A stretch of DNA of 64,000 nucleotides from Mesorhizobium sp. WSM4311 (GTDB lineage Bacteria; Pseudomonadota; Alphaproteobacteria; Rhizobiales; Rhizobiaceae), in the NCBI RefSeq assembly GCF_002295115.1, contig NZ_NSFV01000008.1, positions 1 to 64,000 of the forward strand, in the 5' to 3' direction. Every line of letters begins with the position of its first letter. Within the stretch, counting starts at the first letter, position 1. The notes under the pieces are model-generated. The model had not been told where the DNA came from. It searched no databases and was given only the letters and a program-made list of their open reading frames with translations. Below are positions 223 to 9,120 of this stretch, piece by piece. Made by a program: the position numbers and the translations under genes.

Positions 223-236
223 TTGATTCAGGTCAA
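223..236. promoter_or_regulatory. FNR/FixK-type anaerobox upstream of hemA
   Basis: TTGATTCAGGTCAA is seen, a dyad with one deviation from TTGAT-N4-ATCAA. It lies in the hemA upstream region, with its centre about 107 bp from the hemA start. That distance would leave a leader of roughly 65 nt if the site sits at -41.5. The regulator is not encoded in the window, and its binding is inferred from the motif. Confidence 0.7.
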
Positions 237-260
237 CTTCAGGGGCGAAGGTGTTTTTGC

Positions 261-422
261 TCAGTTCGATATGAGTCGATGCAGCGATCCGCTGCGCAGC
301 ACAGAATGCGTCACGCCGCCAAAGGCCATTTCACGGACACGGCTGTGGCCGTAACCGCCCGCAATGATCAGATCAGCCGTAAATCTGTCGACCAATCTGA
401 AGGGCTGCCCACCCGGCAAAGG
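261..422 (-). pseudogene. Universal stress protein C-terminal relic
   Basis: Minus-strand translation, open only from an in-frame stop at 423-425 down to the stop at 261-263, contains ADLIIAGGYGHSRVREMAFGG followed by VTHSVL. This is the C-terminal nucleotide-binding signature of UspA-family proteins. It closely parallels the end of the intact stress protein encoded at 3975-4784 (DLIVSGAYGHSRLREWAFGG). No N-terminal domain, start codon or SD precedes it, so it is read as a decayed gene. It lies between the hemA box and the box at 432. Apart from this relic and the two boxes, nothing else is visible in bases 123-501. Confidence 0.7.
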
Positions 423-431
423 TCAAAGGGC

Positions 432-445
432 TTGATCCTGATCAA
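432..445. promoter_or_regulatory. FNR/FixK-type anaerobox upstream of the phasin-cytochrome pair
   Basis: TTGATCCTGATCAA has two perfect TTGAT/ATCAA half sites. With the dyad centre at -41.5, transcription would start near 480, just ahead of the GGAG at 489 and the ATG at 502. This spacing supports the later start for the phasin-like gene over an in-frame ATG at 460. A second possible target is the lost stress-protein gene on the other strand. Confidence 0.8.
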
Positions 446-501
446 CGACCCCGAGGCGAATGGCATTAGCGTTGCGGCATCTCGCAACGGAGCAGCCGAT
501 C

Positions 502-885
502 ATGCACAGCTATCCAGGACCGCCGCGATCCGGCACGCAGCTGCTGCCAATGGCGGAAAATGGCCAGAAGGCGGTTCTTGCCGCCGTGTCACTCCAGGCG
601 CACGCCTTCAAGGCGATGATGCGCTATCAGATCGAAACGCTTGCCTTTCTGAGGCATCGTTGCGAGCAGGATATCAAGCTGGCGGACGATCTCATCGGTG
701 GTCCTGAATTCAATGATGCCTTCGAGGTCGTCTCCACCTTCCTGCAGAATGCAGCCTCGGACTATGTCACCGAAGCCGGCAAGGTTGCGACACTGACGTC
801 CAAGCTTGCATCGGAATCGGCCGGGCTGGTGCGCAAGGAAGCCAGAACCGCGATTGAAGACATAGCGGCGAGGACAGTCGCTTGA
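502..885 (+). CDS. Phasin-like protein
   Basis: The product is 127 aa. After a short N-terminus it becomes a helical, alanine-rich sequence (VLAAVSLQAHAFKAMMRYQI, then a stretch ending DYVTEAGKVATLTSKLASES) typical of the phasin_2 family, which coats polyhydroxybutyrate granules. The start at 502 is chosen because GGAG lies 9 bases upstream. The in-frame ATG at 460 would lie ahead of the transcription start predicted from the anaerobox at 432. The cytochrome gene follows after 24 bases, so the two are probably cotranscribed under low oxygen. A link to granules is inferred; the protein could instead be a general stress phasin. Confidence 0.7.
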   Translation: MHSYPGPPRSGTQLLPMAENGQKAVLAAVSLQAHAFKAMMRYQIETLAFLRHRCEQDIKLADDLIGGPEFNDAFEVVSTFLQNAASDYVTEAGKVATLTSKLASESAGLVRKEARTAIEDIAARTVA

Positions 886-909
886 GCGGAAATGCGGAGG
901 CTGGCAGCC

Positions 910-1263
910 ATGAACACCCGTATGGACAATAGCAGCCGCAGATATTGCGCGGCGATTTCCGTGTTGGTGGCGGTTTGGCTTGGCTGCGCACCGCCAGCCT
1001 TGGCAAATAGCTCGGTCGAACGCGGCAAGGTATTGGTTGAGTTCAATTGCGCCGGATGCCACGCGGTTGGCAGAACCGACAAGAGCAGCCATCCGGATGC
1101 GCCCGCCTTTCGCACCTTGTCGAAGCGCTATCCTATCGCGGATCTCGAGGAAGCTCTCGCGGAAGGCATCTCGACGGGACATCCGGACATGCCCGAGTGG
1201 GTTGCGAGCCCTGACCAGATCGAGGCGATCATCGCCTATATCAGCAGCCTGCAGCAACCGTGA
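910..1263 (+). CDS. Small secreted monohaem c-type cytochrome
   Basis: The product is 117 aa. An N-terminal signal segment (about residues 12-32, ending near PALA) is followed by one haem-binding motif, C47-A-G-C50-H51. M94 in HPDMPEW is the likely sixth ligand. This is the layout of a periplasmic class I cytochrome c. GGAGG lies 9 bases before the ATG at 910, favoured over the ATG at 892. It follows the phasin-like gene and shares its anaerobox, suggesting an electron carrier made at low oxygen. No oxidase or reductase partner is in the window, so its electron acceptor is unknown. Confidence 0.8.
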   Translation: MNTRMDNSSRRYCAAISVLVAVWLGCAPPALANSSVERGKVLVEFNCAGCHAVGRTDKSSHPDAPAFRTLSKRYPIADLEEALAEGISTGHPDMPEWVASPDQIEAIIAYISSLQQP

Positions 1264-1358
1264 TCGAGACACCAGCAGAGTAGGCAGAGCTGGGGTGGAT
1301 CCGATCAGGAGCGGCAAGAACGACCTCATTCCGACGGCAATCGGGGCGATTCCAGAAA

Positions 1359-1628
1359 ATGATGCAGATCAAAGCGCGGCCCATCGTTTACGGACATCTT
1401 GATACGATGTGGAAGCCAATCCTAAACGCTCCGTTTGGTCGCGATCTCGAACTTGCCGTCCTTGACGAGGACGGCGCGCACGCGCTTGTATTTCCCTGCC
1501 AAAGGGTGGGGGAGGGTTGGAAGAACGTGACCACCGGCGCGCGTGTCGATATCCGACCGACCCATTGGCGCGACTGGGCGATGGAGAAAACGCTCAACGA
1601 GGAAGACGGACTTCAGCCTGGCCGATAA
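1359..1628 (+). CDS. Conserved hypothetical protein, 89 aa
   Basis: The protein has no signal peptide or membrane segment. It contains a WKPI.NAPFGRDLELAVLDED segment, then HALVFPC and PTHWRDW, a tryptophan-rich pattern I associate with small rhizobial proteins of unknown function. Two adjacent ATGs (1359, 1362) and a later one at 1407 are possible starts. No strong SD decides between them. It ends two bases before the convergent fixJ stop. I cannot assign a function. Confidence 0.55.
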   Translation: MMQIKARPIVYGHLDTMWKPILNAPFGRDLELAVLDEDGAHALVFPCQRVGEGWKNVTTGARVDIRPTHWRDWAMEKTLNEEDGLQPGR

Positions 1629-1630
1629 GT

Positions 1631-2245
1631 CTAGGATTTGGTCTCCACGATAAGTGCCATGCGCACGAGGTGTGACAGGCTGCCTGCCGCCATCTTGCTC
1701 ATGACATTGGCCCGGTGGATTTCGACGGTGCGCGGGCTGATGCCCAGATCATATGCGATCGTCTTGTTCGGCAGGCCGGACACCAGCCCATCCAGCACCT
1801 GGCGCTCGCGCTCCGACAAGGTGGACAGGCGATCGCGGATATCCGCCGACCTGGGATGCGCCGCATGCGCCTGGTTGCGGTTGGCCAATGCGGAACGGAT
1901 CGATTCGATCAGCATCTCGTCATCGAACGGCTTCTCGATGAAGTCGGCGGCTCCCTCCTTCATCGCCTGGACGGCGAGCGCCACATCGGCATGGCCTGTC
2001 ATGACAATAACCGGAATCGTATGGCCGCCGGCTCTGAGCTGCCGCAGGAACTCGATACCGTCTATACCCGGCATGCGTACGTCGGTGACGATGCAGCCCT
2101 CGAGCCTGCCCGTTGCCGTTGACAGAAAAGCGGTGGCCGATTCGTACAGGCGCACCGCAAAATCCGCTGTCGCCAGAAGAAAACCGAGCGACTTGCGAAC
2201 GTCCACATCGTCGTCGACCACATGCACCAGATCACTATCGGCCAT
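1631..2245 (-). CDS. fixJ: FixJ-type two-component response regulator
   Basis: The product is 204 aa, the usual FixJ length. The N-terminal receiver domain has acidic residues D11-D13, phospho-acceptor D55 (TDVRMPG), T83 and K105 (EKPF). The C-terminal LuxR/GerE helix-turn-helix reads [20 protein letters not shown] and then [10 protein letters not shown]. The start is the ATG at 2245, which overlaps the end of fixL by 11 bp and implies translational coupling. Phosphorylated FixJ normally activates fixK and nif/fix promoters when oxygen falls. Neither fixK nor fixNOQP lies in this window, so its targets are elsewhere or are the boxed genes here by way of FixK. Confidence 0.88.
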
Positions 2246-3788
2246 TTGAGACCTCTTCCTTCTCCACGATACGCAAGGTGAACCGGAAAGCCGTCCCGCC
2301 GGTCGGCATTGCCTCGGCCCATATGTGACCGCCATGCGATTCAACGATGGTGCGGCAAATCGAAAGCCCGACGCCCATGCCGTGCTTCTTGGTGGTCACA
2401 AAGGGCTGGAAGAGTTGCGCCGAGACCTCCGGGGCAAGGCCTGGGCCAGTATCGATCACGCTCACTTCGGCCATTCCATCATCGCGGGCGACAGTTGTGA
2501 CCTTCAATTCGCGGCGCGGCGAGCCTTGCATTGCCTCTACGGCATTGCGCATCAGGTTGAGCAGAACCTGCTGGATCTGGATGCGATCGGTCAACACCAG
2601 TTCGGCGGCACGGTCGAGCTTGTAGCTGACGAGGACGTTTATCTCCCGTGCTCCGACCAGTGCCAGGGACGAAGCTTCCTCGATCAGCGTCGGCAGTCGT
2701 TCGACCTGGCGCTCGCTTTCGCCTCTTGCAACGAAATCCCTCAGATGCCTGATGACGTTTCCCGCCCTCAGGGCCTGCTCGGCGGCTTTATCCACGGCAT
2801 CCCGCAGCATTGGCGCATTTTCTTCCTTGCTGTTTTCGAGAAGTCGCCGGCTGCCTTTCAAATAGTTCGTGATCGCCGTAAGCGGCTGGTTGATCTCATG
2901 GGCCAAGGTGGAAGCCATTTCGCCGAGAGCGGTAAACCGCGCCATATGGAGAAGCTCCTGCTGCTGCTCCTGGATTCTCGCTTCCGCCCGGTGGCGTTCG
3001 GTCAGGTCGCGGCAGAAGCCCGTGAAGAAGCGTCCGGTTCCCGGGTGCATCTCGCCGACGGAAAGCTCCATCGGGAAAGTCGTGCCGTCCTTGCGTGCCC
3101 CGGTAACGGTGCGGCCGAGCCCGATGATCCGACGCTCTCCTGTCGTCAAATAGCGAAGCAGATAGGCATCATGCTCGTCGCGATAGGGCGAGGGCATCAG
3201 CAGATTGACGTTTTGCCCGATGACCTCGCTTGACTGGTAGCCGAACAGCGATTCGGCAGCGGTGCTGAAGGACTGGATCCGCCCCTGTTCGTCGATGACG
3301 ACCATGGCGTCGGGCACCGTGGCCAGGATCGAACGCAAATGATCCTCACGCAACCGAAGGGCGGCGTTGGCAAAGGAGAGTTCGCTGACATCCGTGCCTT
3401 CAATGAAGATCGCGGTGATCCGCCCGTCATCGCCCTTGATCGGCTGATAGACGAAATCAAGGATGCGCTCTTCGATCGGCCCGTCTTCATGGTTGCGGAG
3501 GCCGACCTTCACACCTTGTCCCCTGTAGGGCACGCCGGTCTTGTGCACCTGATCCAGATGTTCGAAAAATTCGTGTCCCTCGAGTTCCGGAAAGGCATCG
3601 CGGATGGACTTTCCAACGACTTGCCGGTCTCCGATGAGCCTTTGGTAGGCCGCATTGGTCAGTTCGAAGACATGGTCTGGTCCTTGCAGCAGCGCCATGA
3701 AGCCCGGGGCCTGCTCGAACATCTGCGACAAGACGGATTTCAGCATCGTCCCGTCGGCCGACAAAATAAGCGCTTCGTCTTGGCTCAC
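2235..3788 (-). CDS. fixL: FixL-type oxygen-sensing histidine kinase with an extra N-terminal PAS domain
   Basis: The product is 517 aa from a GTG start; an ATG 42 bases downstream is an alternative. Domains are a PAS-like domain (about 20-140), a second PAS (about 150-265), HisKA with H297 in [12 protein letters not shown], and an HATPase with N box and DTGPGLA. The second PAS carries the FixL haem signature: H206 in RDEHDAYL as proximal haem ligand and R226 in [10 protein letters not shown] as the oxygen-switch arginine. No membrane segments are visible, so it is a soluble FixL like that of Bradyrhizobium. The role of the first PAS is unknown. Confidence 0.88.
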
Positions 3789-3897
3789 CTGCTGACGCCC
3801 CTGGATTCGAAAGACTTGCCGAAGGCGTAGTTATCACTTCTCGCCACACACGCAAAACGGATCGGGGCTTCCGCGTGGAATGCCAGCGTCGGGTCAT

Positions 3898-3911
3898 TTG
3901 ATGCGCATCAA
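3898..3911. promoter_or_regulatory. FNR/FixK-type anaerobox between fixL and the stress-protein/ATPase operon
   Basis: TTGATGCGCATCAA is a fully palindromic 14-mer. Its centre lies 70 bp before the stress-protein ATG at 3975. A site at -41.5 predicts transcription from about 3946, ahead of the AAAGAGG SD at 3962 and downstream of the earlier in-frame ATG at 3930. It is also about 116 bp from the fixL start, so feedback on fixL is possible but unproven. Confidence 0.8.
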
Positions 3912-3974
3912 GGTGCCGGGCGCCCGCGAATGCAATTCATCGCGCATTCCTGCGTTTCAGAAAAGAGGCCGGCA

Positions 3975-4784
3975 ATGTGCTACAAGTCGATCATCGTAAA
4001 CCTTGCGGTGGATGCACCTCCCGCACCGATCGTAAACGTTGGGGTCGAACTGGCGGAACGGTTTGGAGCCCGTCTCATCGGTCTGGCGGCAGCGGATGTT
4101 CCGCCCCTGGTCGCGACTGGCCAGGGCATGGTCTACGAAGGCGAGATCATGCAGATCCAACGGACGGAAATCGAAAAGCGGCTTGCAGAACTGCGAGCCG
4201 AGTTCGAAAGGCTGGTTCCGGCTTCGATCTTCAGCGAATGGGGGCAAGCTGTTTGCAGCCCGACCCGGTTCCTCTGTGTTTCCGCCAGAGCGGCCGACCT
4301 CGTCGTTACCGGCCAGGCAGGAGACAATGTGTTTCGCGCCGTGGATGTCGGCAGCCTGACACTGGGCACCGGGCGTCCGGTCCTGGTCGCCGCAACCAAC
4401 GTCGAGCACGTCCTTGCAAAAACCGTTCTTGTCGCGTGGAAGGACACCAGGGAGGCGCGGCGGGCGATGGCTGATGCGTTGCCTTTCCTGGCCAAAGCCA
4501 GCGAAGTCGTGATTGCCACGATTGACACCGACCGCGACGAAAGCATTCGCGACAGCCTCGCCGATGTCGCGGTCTTTCTCGAGCACCATGGCATCAAGGC
4601 GCGAACCGAGCTGATCGCCGGTGAGGCTGATGGCGACCGGTTGCTGACATTCGCACGCTCGATCCAAACGGACCTCATCGTCTCGGGCGCCTATGGCCAT
4701 AGTCGCTTGCGGGAATGGGCGTTCGGCGGCGTTACCCGCACGCTGATCGAAGAGAGCGGCATCAACCGCTTCATGTCGTATTGA
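3975..4784 (+). CDS. Tandem-domain universal stress protein
   Basis: The product is 269 aa, which fits two UspA-like halves: MCYKSIIVNLAVD opens the first, and the second begins near KTVLVAWKDTREARRAMADA. The C-terminus carries the nucleotide-binding signature SGAYGHSRLREWAFGG. The start at 3975 is favoured by AAAGAGG upstream and by the anaerobox at 3898. The stop overlaps the ATPase start (TGATG), so the two are translationally coupled. UspA proteins of this type are common members of anaerobic regulons. Its substrate or partner is not known. Confidence 0.85.
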   Translation: MCYKSIIVNLAVDAPPAPIVNVGVELAERFGARLIGLAAADVPPLVATGQGMVYEGEIMQIQRTEIEKRLAELRAEFERLVPASIFSEWGQAVCSPTRFLCVSARAADLVVTGQAGDNVFRAVDVGSLTLGTGRPVLVAATNVEHVLAKTVLVAWKDTREARRAMADALPFLAKASEVVIATIDTDRDESIRDSLADVAVFLEHHGIKARTELIAGEADGDRLLTFARSIQTDLIVSGAYGHSRLREWAFGGVTRTLIEESGINRFMSY

Positions 4785-7402
4785 TGATAGGCGAGGCTGA
4801 CCAGCGATCCGTCTCACCAGAGGACGGTGCCTATTGGTCGATCGAGACCAATGACCTCCTGCTACGCCTTGAGACCTCAGTCTCGGGGCTTGCTTCGTCC
4901 GAGGCGGCATCGAGGCTCGCAAAATTCGGCCGAAACACACCCGCGTCGACGTCAAGCGCGTCGGCCATGGCAGTGTTTGCCCGCCAGTTCCGCAGCCCGC
5001 TGGTCCTAATCCTCATTTTCGCGGCCTGCGTATCGGCCTTCGTCGGGGATGGCCAGGAGGCTGCGATCATCGGCGCGATCGTGCTGGCAAGCTGCGTCCT
5101 GAGCTTCACCCAAGAGTACGGTGCGTCGCGGGCGACCGAAGCACTGAAACAGCGTATTTCGCGCAAGGCTATTGTGTTGCGCGACGGCGCCGAGTGCTCG
5201 GTCGCCGCCGACGACATCGTGCCGGGCGACGTGATCCGGCTTTCGGCCGGAAACCTCATCCCAGTCGACGGTATCATTCTGGAAGCGCGCGATTTCAATG
5301 TCAGCGAGGCCGTGCTGACCGGCGAGACCTTTCCCGCCGTGAAGACACCGGGACGCTCGGCGCCGGATGCCGCGCTCACGCTGCGCACCAACGCGGTCTT
5401 TACGGGAACATCCGTCCGTAGCGGCACCGCAACCGTGCTTGCAGCAGCAACGGGCCCCCGCACGGAATTTGCGTCGATCGCCGCGGCCCTGGAGCGACAA
5501 ATCCCCGAAACAGGGTTTGCCCGGGGCATCAGGCTGTTCGGCTATCTGATGACTGAGATCATGCTGGCGATTGTCATCCTGGTGTTCTTCGCGAACCTGA
5601 TGCTGCATCGGCCGCTCATTGAATCGCTGCTGTTTTCGCTGGCACTGGCGGTTGGTCTTACGCCCGAACTTCTCCCGGCCATCATCAGCGTGACGCTGGC
5701 TCGAGGGGCTCGCGCGATGGCAGTCAATGGCGTCATCGTGCGCCGTCTCGATGCCATCGAGAACCTGGGCAGCATGGATTTGTTGTGCACCGACAAAACG
5801 GGGACGCTGACTGAAGGCGTTATCCACCTGGATGGATGGCTCGATGTCGACGGCAATCCATCAACCGATATCCTGCTCTGGGGACGTCTCAACGCGACCC
5901 TGCAGACCGGACTGAAGAATCCACTGGACGAAGCAATCGCCGGTGCGCCAGGCGAGGGCGCATCATTGGCGGCCTTCACGAAAGTCGACGAAATCCCCTA
6001 CGATTTCATTCGCAAGCGACTATCGGTCGTGGTGCGGAACAAGGACGCCCAGGATCTTCTGATTACCAAAGGTGCCGTACAAAATGTCCTCGAAACCTGC
6101 AGCTTCGTCCGAACAGCCAAGGGGCTGGAACCTCTCAATGAAATGGACCGGGCGGCAATCGAGGAAAAATTCCGACGCTGGAGCGCGGACGGCTACCGCG
6201 TTCTGGGCTTGGCAATCCGTCGGTTTGAGCGCCAGAAAACGTTCAGCAGGAAAAACGAGATCGATCTCGCCTTCGCGGGCTTCCTGCTTTTCCTCGACCC
6301 GCCAAAGAGAGGCGTCAAGGAGACGCTTGCCGAACTCGCCCAGCGCGGCATCGCGGTAAAGGTCATTTCTGGCGACAACCGTTACGTTGCCGCGCATCTC
6401 GCCCAGGCGATCGGCTTGCGGGCCGACAGGATCATGACCGGCGAGGAGCTTTCGAAATTGACGAAGAGCGCGCTCTTCGCAGGCGTGCAGCACACCGACC
6501 TCTTCGTCGAGATCGACCCCAACCAGAAGGAGCGCATCGTTCAGGCGTTGCGGAGCAGGGGCCGTGTCGTTGGTTACCTGGGCGACGGCATCAATGATGC
6601 GCCCGCCCTTCATGAGGCAGACATAGGCATCTCGGTCGACAGCGCCGTCGATGTCGCGCGCGAGGCGGCCGATATCATCCTTCTCAAGCAGGATCTCGGC
6701 GTGCTGGTGCGCGGCGTCGACGATGGCCGCAAGACCTTCGCGAACACGATGAAGTACATTTCCATCACCACCAGCGCCAATTTCGGCAACATGATCAGCA
6801 TGGCTGTCGCCTCACTGTTCCTGCCTTTCCTGCCGCTTCTGGCCAAGCAGATCCTGCTCAACAATTTCCTTTCCGACGTTCCTTCACTCGCCATTGCAAG
6901 TGACAACGTCGATCCCGACCAACTGCACAGACCTCGCCACTGGGATATCCGTTTTGTGCGGCGGTTCATGATTAGCTTTGGCTTGGTCAGTTCGCTGTTC
7001 GACTTCGCGACCTTCGCATTCCTTCTGTTCTTCGCGCATGCCACGGAGGCCGCATTCCAGACCGCCTGGTTTGTCGAGTCGTTGCTGACGGAGCTTGCCA
7101 TCGTGCTCATTGTGCGCACGCACAGGGCTTTCTGGGCGAGCCGTCCAAGCCCGTTGCTTGCCTGGCTTACATTGGCTGTCGGGATTATCGCGATCATGAT
7201 CCCCTATCTGCCGTTTGCGGCCTGGTTCGGCTTCGTGCCCTTGCCTCTGCCCGTACTTGCCGGACTTGTCGCAATTACCGCGCTCTATCTACTCGCCTCG
7301 GAGGCGACCAAGCGCTGGTTTTTCGGACAAGAGAGTCGGGCCCGCAAGAAGTTGCTTGCCCGTCAGCGGTCCTTTCTCGATCGCCTTGTGGCCAAGGTTT
7401 AG
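4784..7402 (+). CDS. MgtA-type magnesium-transporting P-type ATPase
   Basis: The product is 872 aa, inner membrane. It has an N-terminal cation-ATPase domain, an actuator TGE motif (VLTGETFPAVK), the membrane motif VGLTPELLPAIISVTLARGA, phosphorylated D337 in DKTGTLTEG, the hinge GDGINDAPAL, and C-terminal helices with NNFLSDVPSLAIASDNVD. The TPELLP and DNVD blocks match the P3B magnesium importers MgtA/MgtB rather than calcium or proton pumps. The start at 4784 overlaps the stress-protein stop by one base; longer in-frame starts would lie inside that gene. The anaerobox at 3898 suggests induction at low oxygen. The ion specificity is inferred from family motifs. Confidence 0.85.
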   Translation: MIGEADQRSVSPEDGAYWSIETNDLLLRLETSVSGLASSEAASRLAKFGRNTPASTSSASAMAVFARQFRSPLVLILIFAACVSAFVGDGQEAAIIGAIVLASCVLSFTQEYGASRATEALKQRISRKAIVLRDGAECSVAADDIVPGDVIRLSAGNLIPVDGIILEARDFNVSEAVLTGETFPAVKTPGRSAPDAALTLRTNAVFTGTSVRSGTATVLAAATGPRTEFASIAAALERQIPETGFARGIRLFGYLMTEIMLAIVILVFFANLMLHRPLIESLLFSLALAVGLTPELLPAIISVTLARGARAMAVNGVIVRRLDAIENLGSMDLLCTDKTGTLTEGVIHLDGWLDVDGNPSTDILLWGRLNATLQTGLKNPLDEAIAGAPGEGASLAAFTKVDEIPYDFIRKRLSVVVRNKDAQDLLITKGAVQNVLETCSFVRTAKGLEPLNEMDRAAIEEKFRRWSADGYRVLGLAIRRFERQKTFSRKNEIDLAFAGFLLFLDPPKRGVKETLAELAQRGIAVKVISGDNRYVAAHLAQAIGLRADRIMTGEELSKLTKSALFAGVQHTDLFVEIDPNQKERIVQALRSRGRVVGYLGDGINDAPALHEADIGISVDSAVDVAREAADIILLKQDLGVLVRGVDDGRKTFANTMKYISITTSANFGNMISMAVASLFLPFLPLLAKQILLNNFLSDVPSLAIASDNVDPDQLHRPRHWDIRFVRRFMISFGLVSSLFDFATFAFLLFFAHATEAAFQTAWFVESLLTELAIVLIVRTHRAFWASRPSPLLAWLTLAVGIIAIMIPYLPFAAWFGFVPLPLPVLAGLVAITALYLLASEATKRWFFGQESRARKKLLARQRSFLDRLVAKV

Positions 7403-7450
7403 CGCCATGCTCCCTGTTGGGGGCTCAGGGATCGGCAACGATGCCGCCTG

Positions 7451-7464
7451 TTGATCGAGATCAA
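7451..7464. promoter_or_regulatory. FNR/FixK-type anaerobox upstream of the DUF6455 gene
   Basis: TTGATCGAGATCAA has two perfect half sites. Its centre is 59 bp before the ATG at 7517. A site at -41.5 predicts a start near 7499, directly before the AGGAG at 7504. Confidence 0.8.
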
Positions 7465-7516
7465 CGCCGCCTGCCGCCAACATGCCAATGATGGCCAGTA
7501 GGCAGGAGTGATCACC

Positions 7517-7786
7517 ATGACCTTTCTCGATTACCTGATTTCAATTGATGCCAGAACCACCTTGATGGACCGCATGATGCGGAAGCTGGGCGTCGACAGA
7601 CAATTGAAGGTCGTGGCAGACCATACCGCCGTCACCAACCGGGCGGTGGACCGCTGCCAATCCTGCGGGCACCAGGACGAATGCTCGGTTTGGCTCGACG
7701 AACATCAGCAAGCCGATAACCCGCCAGACTATTGCCGCAACAGCGACCTGATCGCTCGGTTGCGGCATGCGGCCGGTCAACGGTAA
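7517..7786 (+). CDS. DUF6455 family small cysteine-rich protein
   Basis: The product is 89 aa. It contains LDYLISIDARTTLMDRMMRKLGV and a cysteine cluster, C47-x2-C50-x5-C56 and then PDYC73RN. This pattern is typical of DUF6455 proteins found in respiration and denitrification neighbourhoods, and the cysteines could bind metal or an Fe-S cluster. The ATG at 7517 is chosen over an in-frame GTG at 7508, which overlaps the AGGAG SD. It has its own anaerobox at 7451. The biochemical role is unknown. Confidence 0.8.
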   Translation: MTFLDYLISIDARTTLMDRMMRKLGVDRQLKVVADHTAVTNRAVDRCQSCGHQDECSVWLDEHQQADNPPDYCRNSDLIARLRHAAGQR

Positions 7787-7830
7787 TCATTCGAATACTC
7801 AGCCTGGACGATGTCGTGCTGTCCGTGTTT

Positions 7831-7844
7831 TTGACGAGAGTCAA
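7831..7844. promoter_or_regulatory. Variant anaerobox without an obvious target gene
   Basis: TTGACGAGAGTCAA has perfectly symmetric half sites but with TTGAC/GTCAA. It lies in the 301-base space between two convergent genes (7787-8087). Downstream there is GGAGG at 7917-7921 and an in-frame stretch up to a stop near 8012 that ends in a hydrophobic segment, but no ATG or GTG follows the SD. It may serve a tiny unrecognised gene or be a leftover of a lost one. Confidence 0.45.
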
Positions 7845-8087
7845 CGCGAGCCACGTGTTGCAGTTGATAGGTTTACGTTCCACCGGGTGTGGCTTTTGCT
7901 GGGGCGGCGCTTCTGCGGAGGCAAAACACTGGCAGAAAAAGTTGCGGGCACGGCGCTTATTGCCTTTGCCCTGTTGCTCCTTCGACCATTGATACCCATG
8001 GTCGCGCCCTAGGCGCGGCGAAGCCTTGGGCGAGGACTGGCAACACAGAGGGCAATGGTGCCTTGCTGCGGATCAATGTCAGCTCCG

Positions 8088-8786
8088 CTACGAAACAAGG
8101 ACGACCGACACGGGATCGGCGCAGAAGAGATTGTCCTTGACTGCATTGACGCCGGCGACGTTTTCGGCGGCGACTATTGCTGCCTGGCGCTCGCGTTCAT
8201 CGAAGATGGCGCCGCTCAATGTCACCACGCCCTTGTCCACCATCACGTTGATCAAATCGTTGCCAGCCCATTTCTGCCTCGCAAGCTCGGTAGCGATGTT
8301 CTGCCGAATCTGTTCGTCATCGATGACCGTAGCGCCTCCATCCGGAAGGACGCCGAGCAATGCCCGCAGAAGATCAGAGCGGGTGATGATGCCAACGACT
8401 TTCCCAGCTTCTACGACGGGAATGCGTTTGACATGGTGACGCGTCATGAGCTCGACGACTTTCGCGAGTGATGCCGCAGGGGATGCCGTCACGACATCCT
8501 GCGACATCACCTCTTCAACCCGTCGACCATTGGCGCGGACATATTCGTCGGCGGCCTTTCCTGGGCTGACGAGAAATTCCAGCCAGCGCGAGCGCTTGCG
8601 CTCCGTACCCAGTTCCCCGCGTCGCAGGAAATCGCCCTCGCTGACGATCCCCACCAGCCTGCCGTCGTTGCGAATGACGGGGAGGCCGCTGAGCTTTTTG
8701 GAGAGCATCAACCCGGCGGCCTCGGCGATCGATGCTGACGGGTCTATGCCGACGACTGGCTTGCTCATTATGGCTTCGGCTTGCAT
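8088..8786 (-). CDS. CBS-domain pair plus BON domain protein
   Basis: The product is 232 aa. There is a CBS motif at about 1-55 (MQAEAIMSKPVVGIDPSASI), a second at about 90-145 (VEEVMSQDVVTASPAASLAK), and a BON domain from about 157 to 225. CBS pairs usually bind adenine nucleotides and BON domains bind phospholipid or protein surfaces. No signal peptide is seen. The ATG at 8784-8786 is preceded by GGAGAG 8 bases away; two upstream in-frame ATGs lack this. An anaerobox at 8848-8861 lies 68 bp upstream. The architecture is common in rhizobial low-oxygen regulons, but its target is unknown. Confidence 0.85.
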   Translation of the reverse strand: MQAEAIMSKPVVGIDPSASIAEAAGLMLSKKLSGLPVIRNDGRLVGIVSEGDFLRRGELGTERKRSRWLEFLVSPGKAADEYVRANGRRVEEVMSQDVVTASPAASLAKVVELMTRHHVKRIPVVEAGKVVGIITRSDLLRALLGVLPDGGATVIDDEQIRQNIATELARQKWAGNDLINVMVDKGVVTLSGAIFDERERQAAIVAAENVAGVNAVKDNLFCADPVSVVLVS

Positions 8787-8829
8787 GTTCGCTCTCCGGA
8801 GTTTCTCCAACGTCCGGCTTCTTTAGCTT

Positions 8830-9120
8830 TCATATGCACGAAGCGCCTTGATCTGAATCATTTGTCGGTGGAGGCAAATGGTCCAAGGCTGGAGCCGTGA
8901 ATGACAGGGCGCGAACCGGTAGACCAGCTATCGCGGTCTTGGCGACGTTCACGCCAAGTTCGTAGACAAGCAGTCCACCGTGGTAGGCCGTCGCAGTGAC
9001 CAGAAATGCACCGCAAATTTCGATCAGAGGAATGGCGATCGTTACAACCCGCGTGTCACGGTTCCGCGTCCAAAGCCAAGGCGCACAACCAGGCCGCCCT
9101 TGTGGCATTGCTGCGATCAA
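8830..9120 (-). pseudogene. DUF2231-like membrane protein, C-terminal relic
   Basis: The minus-strand reading frame contains VTIAIPLIEICGAFLVTATA followed by YHGGLLVYELGVNV. This is a hydrophobic helix ending in the G-G-x-LVY-x-x-GV motif typical of the C-terminus of DUF2231 predicted membrane proteins. The first helices of the family are missing, and the sequence upstream runs into the SGNH gene, so this is read as a 5'-truncated relic. With the anaerobox at 8848, it fills the space 8787-9138. The family call rests on one short motif. Confidence 0.55.
8848..8861. promoter_or_regulatory. FNR/FixK-type anaerobox upstream of the CBS-BON gene
   Basis: On the plus strand this reads TTGATCTGAATCAT, one base off the consensus dyad. 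The centre is 68 bp from the CBS-BON start, which suits a site at -41.5 with transcription from about 8813. It overlaps the last codons of the DUF2231 relic. Confidence 0.7.

Follow-up and report, generated by a model that had tools for sequence, protein, structure and literature searches.

The fixLJ genes of Mesorhizobium sp. WSM4311 lie in a compact block of genes punctuated by FNR/FixK-type dyads, and this locus raises the question of how far the block behaves as a low-oxygen regulon, and of how a small gene next to fixJ, here called the MW gene, is expressed within it. The window, by which we mean the whole stretch of DNA analysed, comprises 64,000 nucleotides (C42:1-64000) of a 6.98 Mb genome. 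Dyads were sought with the FNR/FixK pattern TTGAY-N4-RTCAA, against which all mismatches are counted. A sequence-only reading of this DNA had listed six dyads, at 223, 432, 3898, 7451, 7831 and 8848. We located all six at those places, the first five with 0 mismatches and the last with 1 mismatch (TTGATCTGAATCAT), but a seventh dyad with one mismatch, at 1359-1372 and kept in relatives, had been overlooked. It is this seventh dyad, the most diagnostic one in the island, that leads to our main finding: the locus is likely a FixLJ-FixK/FnrN low-oxygen island in which the MW gene is transcribed from a class II promoter, and a leaderless MW mRNA is strongly predicted.

The MW start codon mostly lies at a near-constant distance from an FNR/FixK dyad

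An 89-codon frame starts inside the one-mismatch dyad at 1359-1372. In relatives aligned at the MW gene, the dyad is conserved, the spacer that follows it is variable, and strong conservation sets in at ATG 1407. Since conservation starts at this ATG after a variable spacer, the MW product is most likely a protein of 73 amino acids (aa) starting MWKPI, encoded at 1407-1628 on the (+) strand. The centre of the dyad lies 41.5 bp upstream of the A of ATG 1407, which is the class II distance if transcription begins at that A, and a -10 box, CATCTT, occupies 1395-1400 on the (+) strand, at positions -12 to -7 from the ATG.

The MW protein was matched at 133 places in 90 of 146 genus genomes, E-values being modest for proteins this short. 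Upstream regions were compared for 115 of the 133 genus places together with two outside the genus, which, with one identical pair, gave 116 distinct regions. In 99 of the 116 genes (99 of the 114 in the genus) the start is preceded, at a centre distance of 40.5-45.5 bp, by a dyad with no more than one mismatch, the spacing being 41.5 bp in 68 members, 40.5 bp in 20, 42.5 bp in three, 43.5 bp in three, 44.5 bp in four and 45.5 bp in one. Nearer the MW start no dyad of this quality was seen; further upstream, in the 120 bp covered, six members had one. Six of the eight members at 43.5-45.5 bp have a second ATG directly in front, which places the dyad at 40.5-42.5 bp; counted from that second ATG, 97 of the 99 dyads sit at 40.5-42.5 bp, a post hoc correction made with the data already seen.

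The -10 box follows the same geometry. Across the 99 members A(-11) was found in 95 and T(-7) in 88, with 68/68 and 66/68 at the 41.5 bp spacing and 20/20 for both bases at 40.5 bp (88/88 and 86/88 when these two spacings are pooled). Save for A(-11), T(-7), G(-6), a few pyrimidines and a GCG beside the dyad, the spacer of the 68 members is poorly conserved. These spacers fall into 30 greedy clusters below 70% identity, so that the conserved bases are not simply the product of recent descent. Shine-Dalgarno-like 4-mers precede 9 of the 116 MW genes, compared with 30 of 37 hemA, usp, CBS-BON, DUF6455 and phasin genes in relatives under the same rule. Together, the dyad spacing, the -10 box and the scarcity of Shine-Dalgarno motifs lead us to predict class II promoters that give leaderless MW mRNA.

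The MW gene is frequently linked to fixLJ

Of 80 named loci, 59 have fixJ (50% identity or more) and 54 have fixL no further than 5 kb from the MW gene, several of the loci that enter these counts being cut by contig ends. Linkage to fixJ was seen in 53 of 60 Mesorhizobium or Mesorhizobium-like loci and, beyond that group, in Ferirhizobium, Bradyrhizobium diversitatis, an unclassified alphaproteobacterium and three Rhizobium loci (fixJ at 50-51% identity). Relative to these genes the MW gene is found in three orientations: it converges on fixJ, diverges from fixL, or precedes fixL in the same direction. That it recurs beside fixLJ in different genera and layouts points to a component of oxygen sensing that is still uncharacterised, and from this placement we suggest that the MW protein may have a part in the FixLJ circuit. 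The closest relative among the named loci fetched, that of M. huakuii NBRC 15243, shares 86% (MW), 96% (FixJ) and 96% (FixL) identity with the window proteins.

The dyad was present in 64 of the 80 named loci, which overlap with the main genus set and are not a separate sample. A Pseudolabrys metagenome-assembled genome has a dyad spacing of 40.5 bp. In three Bradyrhizobium loci (L340, L349 and L350) the ATG lies one codon earlier, with a perfect dyad at exactly 41.5 bp from it; L349 and L350 are near-identical, and both keep A(-11) and T(-7). The genome of the window itself holds a second MW copy on another contig (C24:8381-8566, (-) strand, L098), whose ATG follows the centre of a perfect dyad by 40.5 bp. 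Annotation of the family looks unreliable: in M. ciceri pMESCI01 (L183) the listed MW start falls 15 bases past the conserved ATG, and R. leguminosarum (L177) has a gene listed on the opposite strand over the MW gene.

Dyads precede the same genes in relatives of the island

The five zero-mismatch dyads and one single-mismatch dyad fall within 8.6 kb around fixLJ, the five within 7.6 kb, and no other zero-mismatch dyad was found elsewhere in the 64-kb window (outside 223-7844). Sites with at most one mismatch number 9 in the window against 3.58 expected from shuffles, and 1 of 100 shuffles reached 9. A scan of the whole genome, which the sequence-only reading had proposed as a check, returned 36 perfect dyads compared with 7 for the reversed control pattern. 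Base composition alone predicts about 7.5 perfect dyads per genome and 0.01 per 8.9 kb, and some of the 36 fall inside coding sequence.

Within the island, the dyads can be assigned to putative promoters of hemA (223-236, 0 mismatches, predicted transcription start site (TSS) 188), phasin (432-445, 0 mismatches, predicted TSS 480), usp-mgtA (3898-3911, 0 mismatches, predicted TSS 3946), DUF6455 (7451-7464, 0 mismatches, predicted TSS 7499) and CBS-BON (8848-8861, one mismatch, predicted TSS 8813). The -10 box conservation was examined at the MW gene alone, and the start sites given for these other genes are predictions. Three dyads had been credited with perfect TTGAT/ATCAA halves, and these are the ones at 432, 3898 and 7451. 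The distances of 59-70 bp claimed from dyad centre to start codon agree with those that we measured, namely 63.5 bp for phasin, 70.5 bp for usp, 59.5 bp for DUF6455 and 68.5 bp for CBS-BON.

Footprints of these dyads were sought in 13 same-genus loci picked for carrying an intact or broken Usp orthologue; each denominator counts the loci where the gene in question was found, and a dyad here has at most one mismatch. An upstream dyad was present for usp in 13/13 relatives (12 perfect), for DUF6455 in 4/4 (all perfect), for CBS-BON in 7/8 (each with one mismatch) and for phasin in 1/1 (L077, which has the same dyad as the window), and hemA had a dyad within 240 bp in 10/11 (2 perfect). When the relatives were aligned, the dyads stayed constant in flanking DNA that is otherwise variable. 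The block had been described as a coherent regulon, and this stands in so far as dyads precede the same genes in relatives, but not for dyad 7831, which most likely belonged to a gene that has since decayed (discussed below). On the plasmid pMESCI01 of Mesorhizobium ciceri WSM1271 the order MW - fixJ - fixL - usp - DUF6455 - CBS is the same, and the block continues with DUF1858, a Crp/Fnr gene, pseudoazurin and NnrS.

Candidate regulators are encoded outside the window

An unlinked FixK or FnrN had been supposed, and we found one FixK-like and two FnrN-like regulators encoded outside the window. The FixK-like protein (L090:4376-5020, contig C8) has HTH_Crp_2 and is without N-terminal cysteines; the two FnrN-like proteins (L089:5556-6281 and L115:4044-4784) have HTH_Crp_2 together with C-x2-C-x7-C. 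These names rest on similarity, since the NCBIfam scores of the two proteins scanned are below cut-offs, with 186 bits for the FixK-like protein on the Caulobacter FixK model (cut-off 300) and 233 for the FnrN-like protein on the FnrL model (cut-off 300). Elsewhere in the genome, perfect dyads also separate hemN from fnrN and precede both ccoN (fixN) and an arginine deiminase cluster, which comprises genes for an arginine-ornithine antiporter, arginine deiminase and ornithine carbamoyltransferase (contig C8, L090 9043-12826). As far as the sequence tells, the island is an ordinary kind of rhizobial FixLJ-FixK/FnrN low-oxygen regulon. In other genomes, arcA directly adjoins the MW gene in Sinorhizobium sp. 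B11 and on a Rhizobium leguminosarum plasmid.

A model for the island and its alternatives

We infer from the DNA that the regulators bind, where transcription starts, that the genes respond to oxygen, that the MW mRNA is translated without a leader, and that FixLJ acts on FixK in this strain. In the resulting model, the haem-containing FixL encoded in the window would phosphorylate FixJ, also encoded there, and FixJ would turn on the unlinked FixK of contig C8. FixK and the two unlinked FnrN-like iron-sulfur (Fe-S) regulators would then bind the TTGAY-N4-RTCAA dyads, so that hemA, phasin-cytochrome c, usp-mgtA, DUF6455 and CBS-BON would be activated as class II promoters. Through the seventh dyad the MW gene would be activated too; its transcription would begin no more than a base away from the A of the ATG, giving a leaderless mRNA. 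This cassette, made up of dyad, spacer with -10 box and ATG, appears to have been kept across the genus and duplicated in several genomes. Oxygen control of polyhydroxybutyrate, Mg2+ and haem functions, which the sequence-only reading had also proposed, would follow if the model holds.

It is rather improbable that MW is instead an ordinary gene translated from the NTG within the dyad (ATGATGCAGATCAAAGCG..., 89 aa), with the dyad being coding sequence and the promoter lying further upstream. Three observations would suit such a gene: 72 of 99 members have the first dyad base in frame with the MW ATG, 40 of the 68 members with 41.5 bp spacing read ATG for the dyad NTG, and a second perfect dyad is present 99.5-236.5 bp upstream in some copies. 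However, the dyad NTG cannot start MW in 41 of the 99 members, where it is out of frame or followed by an in-frame stop; the spacer is variable whereas the protein after the MW ATG is conserved; the conservation of A(-11) and T(-7) suits a -10 box rather than codons; and the three Bradyrhizobium loci keep the same dyad distance from an ATG one codon earlier. A start at 1359 was rejected for the family on this spacer, frame and stop evidence. The dyads might also be bound mainly by another CRP/FNR regulator, for instance one of the nitric oxide (NO)-responsive NnrR/DNR type or FnrN only, in which case the island would answer NO or anoxia and not FixLJ. The genome encodes 31 HTH_Crp_2 matches, of which 14 exceed the cut-off, and the pMESCI01 block adjoins NnrS, pseudoazurin and another Crp/Fnr gene. 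Nevertheless, those 53 of 60 Mesorhizobium or Mesorhizobium-like loci have fixJ no more than 5 kb from the MW gene, and the known FixK/FnrN targets ccoN, hemN and hemA bear the same motif, and we consider control by such a regulator unlikely. That the dyads are degenerate, functionless motifs clustered by chance is scarcely credible: the pattern is a simple 14-mer with four free bases and some of its 36 genomic sites are in coding sequence, but the excess of 36 over 7 in the genome, the five dyads in 7.6 kb and the footprints in relatives contradict it, and we dismissed it on dyad counts and conservation.

Several observations weigh against a leaderless MW gene driven by FixK, the reading that we prefer. 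The sample leaves out 18 of the 133 genus MW rows, mostly partial matches; the dyad is mismatched at its first base in 86 of 99 copies; and in 58 of 99 the dyad NTG is still a possible in-frame start, which would give a longer product. Of the 116 members, 17 have no dyad with one mismatch or fewer at the expected position; five of these have a two-mismatch dyad at 40.5-42.5 bp, some are degraded or distant copies, and two (L190 and L191) lie outside the genus. L262, L263 and L270, which are 60-65% identical and intact-looking with the ATG present, are likewise without a dyad. Among the Bradyrhizobium loci, L340 is without A(-11)/T(-7), and four of eight are without the dyad arrangement, as are both Nitratireductor loci; L337 has a two-mismatch dyad at 42.5 bp. 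L339, with a dyad at 43.5 bp plus a Shine-Dalgarno-like motif, is intermediate and counts against a strict rule. Rhizobium and Sinorhizobium relatives have GGAGG before the ATG and no dyad (10/10 looked at). Also on this side stand the other CRP/FNR paralogues, which could bind the island dyads (14 of the 31 HTH_Crp_2 matches being above cut-off). Since the dyad is lacking in several relatives, the FixK link of the MW gene is not universal in the family, and the Rhizobium/Sinorhizobium and Mesorhizobium genes would provide a natural contrast of leadered and predicted leaderless forms.

Relation to known low-oxygen regulons and leaderless mRNAs

The island is like the FixLJ-FixK2/FnrN regulons of rhizobia (Bradyrhizobium, Sinorhizobium and Rhizobium) in its predicted cascade, its dyad and its targets hemA, hemN and cco/fixN, all of which are described for the rhizobial FixLJ-to-FixK pathway (PMC4999443). 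In microoxia Usp, CBS-domain and phasin proteins go up in B. diazoefficiens (PMC6515984), and predicted FixK targets include a CBS-domain protein, a class I cytochrome c and FixL (PMC2908626). In contrast, MgtA, DUF6455 and the MW cassette were not met in the portions consulted of accounts of known FixK regulons. The lxa locus of Burkholderia cenocepacia is a universal stress protein cluster tied to low oxygen, for which a FixK-like regulator is discussed (PMC6127331); the lxa host, unlike that of the island, is a betaproteobacterium. The island adds a well-supported Mesorhizobium example to the known FixLJ-FixK/FnrN regulons. As M. loti R7A mutants in fixJ and fixK still fix nitrogen (PMC3538637), a symbiotic role should not be assumed, and the island suggests what purpose the cascade may serve in a genus in which that strain does not need FixJ and FixK for fixation.

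Leaderless mRNAs are a known class in rhizobia, with 171 in Sinorhizobium meliloti and, in Bradyrhizobium japonicum, 192 TSSs that coincide exactly with the start codon (PMC3616915, PMC4842269). Unlike the predicted MW mRNA, the leaderless genes in the portions of these surveys consulted are not connected with FixK or with any activator at a constant class II spacing, and we recognised no link of FixK or FNR to leaderless mRNA among the papers listed from the open-access library searched. The MW family can be seen as a natural experiment spanning the genus, in which the activator site keeps a distance of about 41.5 bp from the start codon. Were the prediction confirmed, the family would offer a clean oxygen-inducible model for leaderless translation in an alphaproteobacterium.

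The MW protein is predicted to be a small beta protein

The predicted fold of the MW protein is a small five-stranded beta protein (predicted local distance difference test score, pLDDT, 80.8). No convincing relatives were found among solved structures, either by sequence (best E 0.25) or by fold, where the best match was a chain of a 50S ribosomal particle (Z 4.4, root-mean-square deviation 5.2, 66 aligned). The best E-values were 0.019 against PHROGs and 0.18 against NCBIfam. Among viral structure models (BFVD), 21 of the 50 matches listed were named DUF551 (best E 0.0099), and the top viral match from Foldseek had a probability of 1.00 and a template modelling (TM) score of 0.60 on the query. 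Pfam DUF551 matched 0 of 21 MW members at E up to 10. We take DUF551 kinship as a lead, with the viral fold search weakly for it and Pfam against it. DUF551 phage and prophage proteins, e.g. E. coli YfdS (PMC4776307), may share a fold with the MW protein, as this viral match weakly suggests; unlike them, the MW gene is bacterial, lies next to fixLJ and gives no Pfam DUF551 match.

FixT, a negative-feedback regulator of FixL in Caulobacter (PMC7078487), is a small protein of the FixLJ pathway, in which the MW protein may also have a part; the likeness is one of functional analogy only: FixT is a receiver-domain protein, whereas MW is predicted to be a small beta protein and gives no receiver-domain match. 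A bolder and rather doubtful proposal is that MW is a phage-derived, DUF551-like microprotein captured by FixLJ and carried in a portable FixK class II leaderless cassette. It might act in feedback on FixL/FixJ or on a low-oxygen target; leaderless initiation would set translation when the cell is energy-poor, and a single protein-DNA geometry would fix the distance from dyad to AUG.

Other genes of the island

The gene family names given earlier to the island were upheld by Pfam and NCBIfam profiles. For hemA (5-aminolevulinate synthase) the family was right, but its truncation at the contig edge had been overlooked: the window holds its 5' end at 1-122 on the (-) strand, with the ATG at 122. 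This piece, the first 40 codons, matches TIGR01821 with E 2.3e-10 and 39.9 bits (the cut-off of 338.55 being set for the whole protein) and shares 90-100% identity with its counterparts in the relatives, 11 of whose 13 loci include hemA. Next to it, at 267-386 on the (-) strand, is a Usp gene remnant encoding the C-terminal 40 aa, with 48% identity to the window Usp (E 5.1e-7) and 82% identity to Usp pieces between hemA and phasin in L077. In L077 these pieces lie in two overlapping frames, with their own dyad present. The phasin gene (502-885, (+) strand; PF09361, E 9e-9) is followed by that of a small c-type cytochrome (910-1263, (+) strand; PF00034, E 5e-9) with a CAGCH motif in its translation.

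Both oxygen-sensing genes are on the (-) strand. FixJ (1631-2245) scores 307 bits on NF006900, above the cut-off of 255. FixL, a haem-PAS oxygen-sensor kinase (2235-3788), scores 569 bits on NF041777, below the cut-off of 850, the match beginning at residue 123. Its haem PAS aligns without gaps to the solved FixL PAS 1DP6, with R-S-R-HDSY there opposite R-D-E-HDAY here, the His of which we take to be the haem ligand (proximal His). On the (+) strand follow the universal stress protein gene usp (3975-4784), with two Usp stretches (PF00582 x2), and that of an MgtA-type Mg2+ P-type ATPase (4784-7402; TIGR01524, 769 bits, above the cut-off of 611). The DUF6455 protein (7517-7786, (+) strand; PF20056, E 1.7e-21), under a perfect dyad, has a compact CxxC-x5-C with a fourth Cys further along, and these cysteines could hold a metal or an Fe-S cluster. 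The CBS-BON protein (8088-8786, (-) strand) matches PF00571 twice and PF04972.

No intact gene lies downstream of dyad 7831 (7831-7844, 0 mismatches) in the window. The 41-codon frame behind it has matches in 38 of 146 genus genomes, and a small membrane-protein gene at 7887 was at first accepted on its conservation and then rejected, as relatives show the sequence to be the end of a LysE-type transporter gene. The remnant (7887-8012, (+) strand), C-terminal in the gene, shares 90% identity with the final part of the 182-codon frames of L118 and L119, and the L119 homologue matches PF01810 LysE with E 4e-5 and 23.6 bits, just below the cut-off of 25.6. We fetched 29 LysE-type homologues and located the start in 26, of which 19 have the 182-codon frame, three run to 174-181 codons and four fall short of that, so the gene is broken in other genomes as well. 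Six close homologues (L119-L124) carry a perfect dyad 57.5-60.5 bp before the TTG start of the LysE-type gene; among the others, one has a dyad with one mismatch at 61.5 bp, nine have two mismatches at 55.5-63.5 bp, and ten are without. What remains in the window is dyad 7831 and roughly the last fifth of the gene, and this dyad is most likely the leftover promoter of a decayed LysE-type transporter gene.

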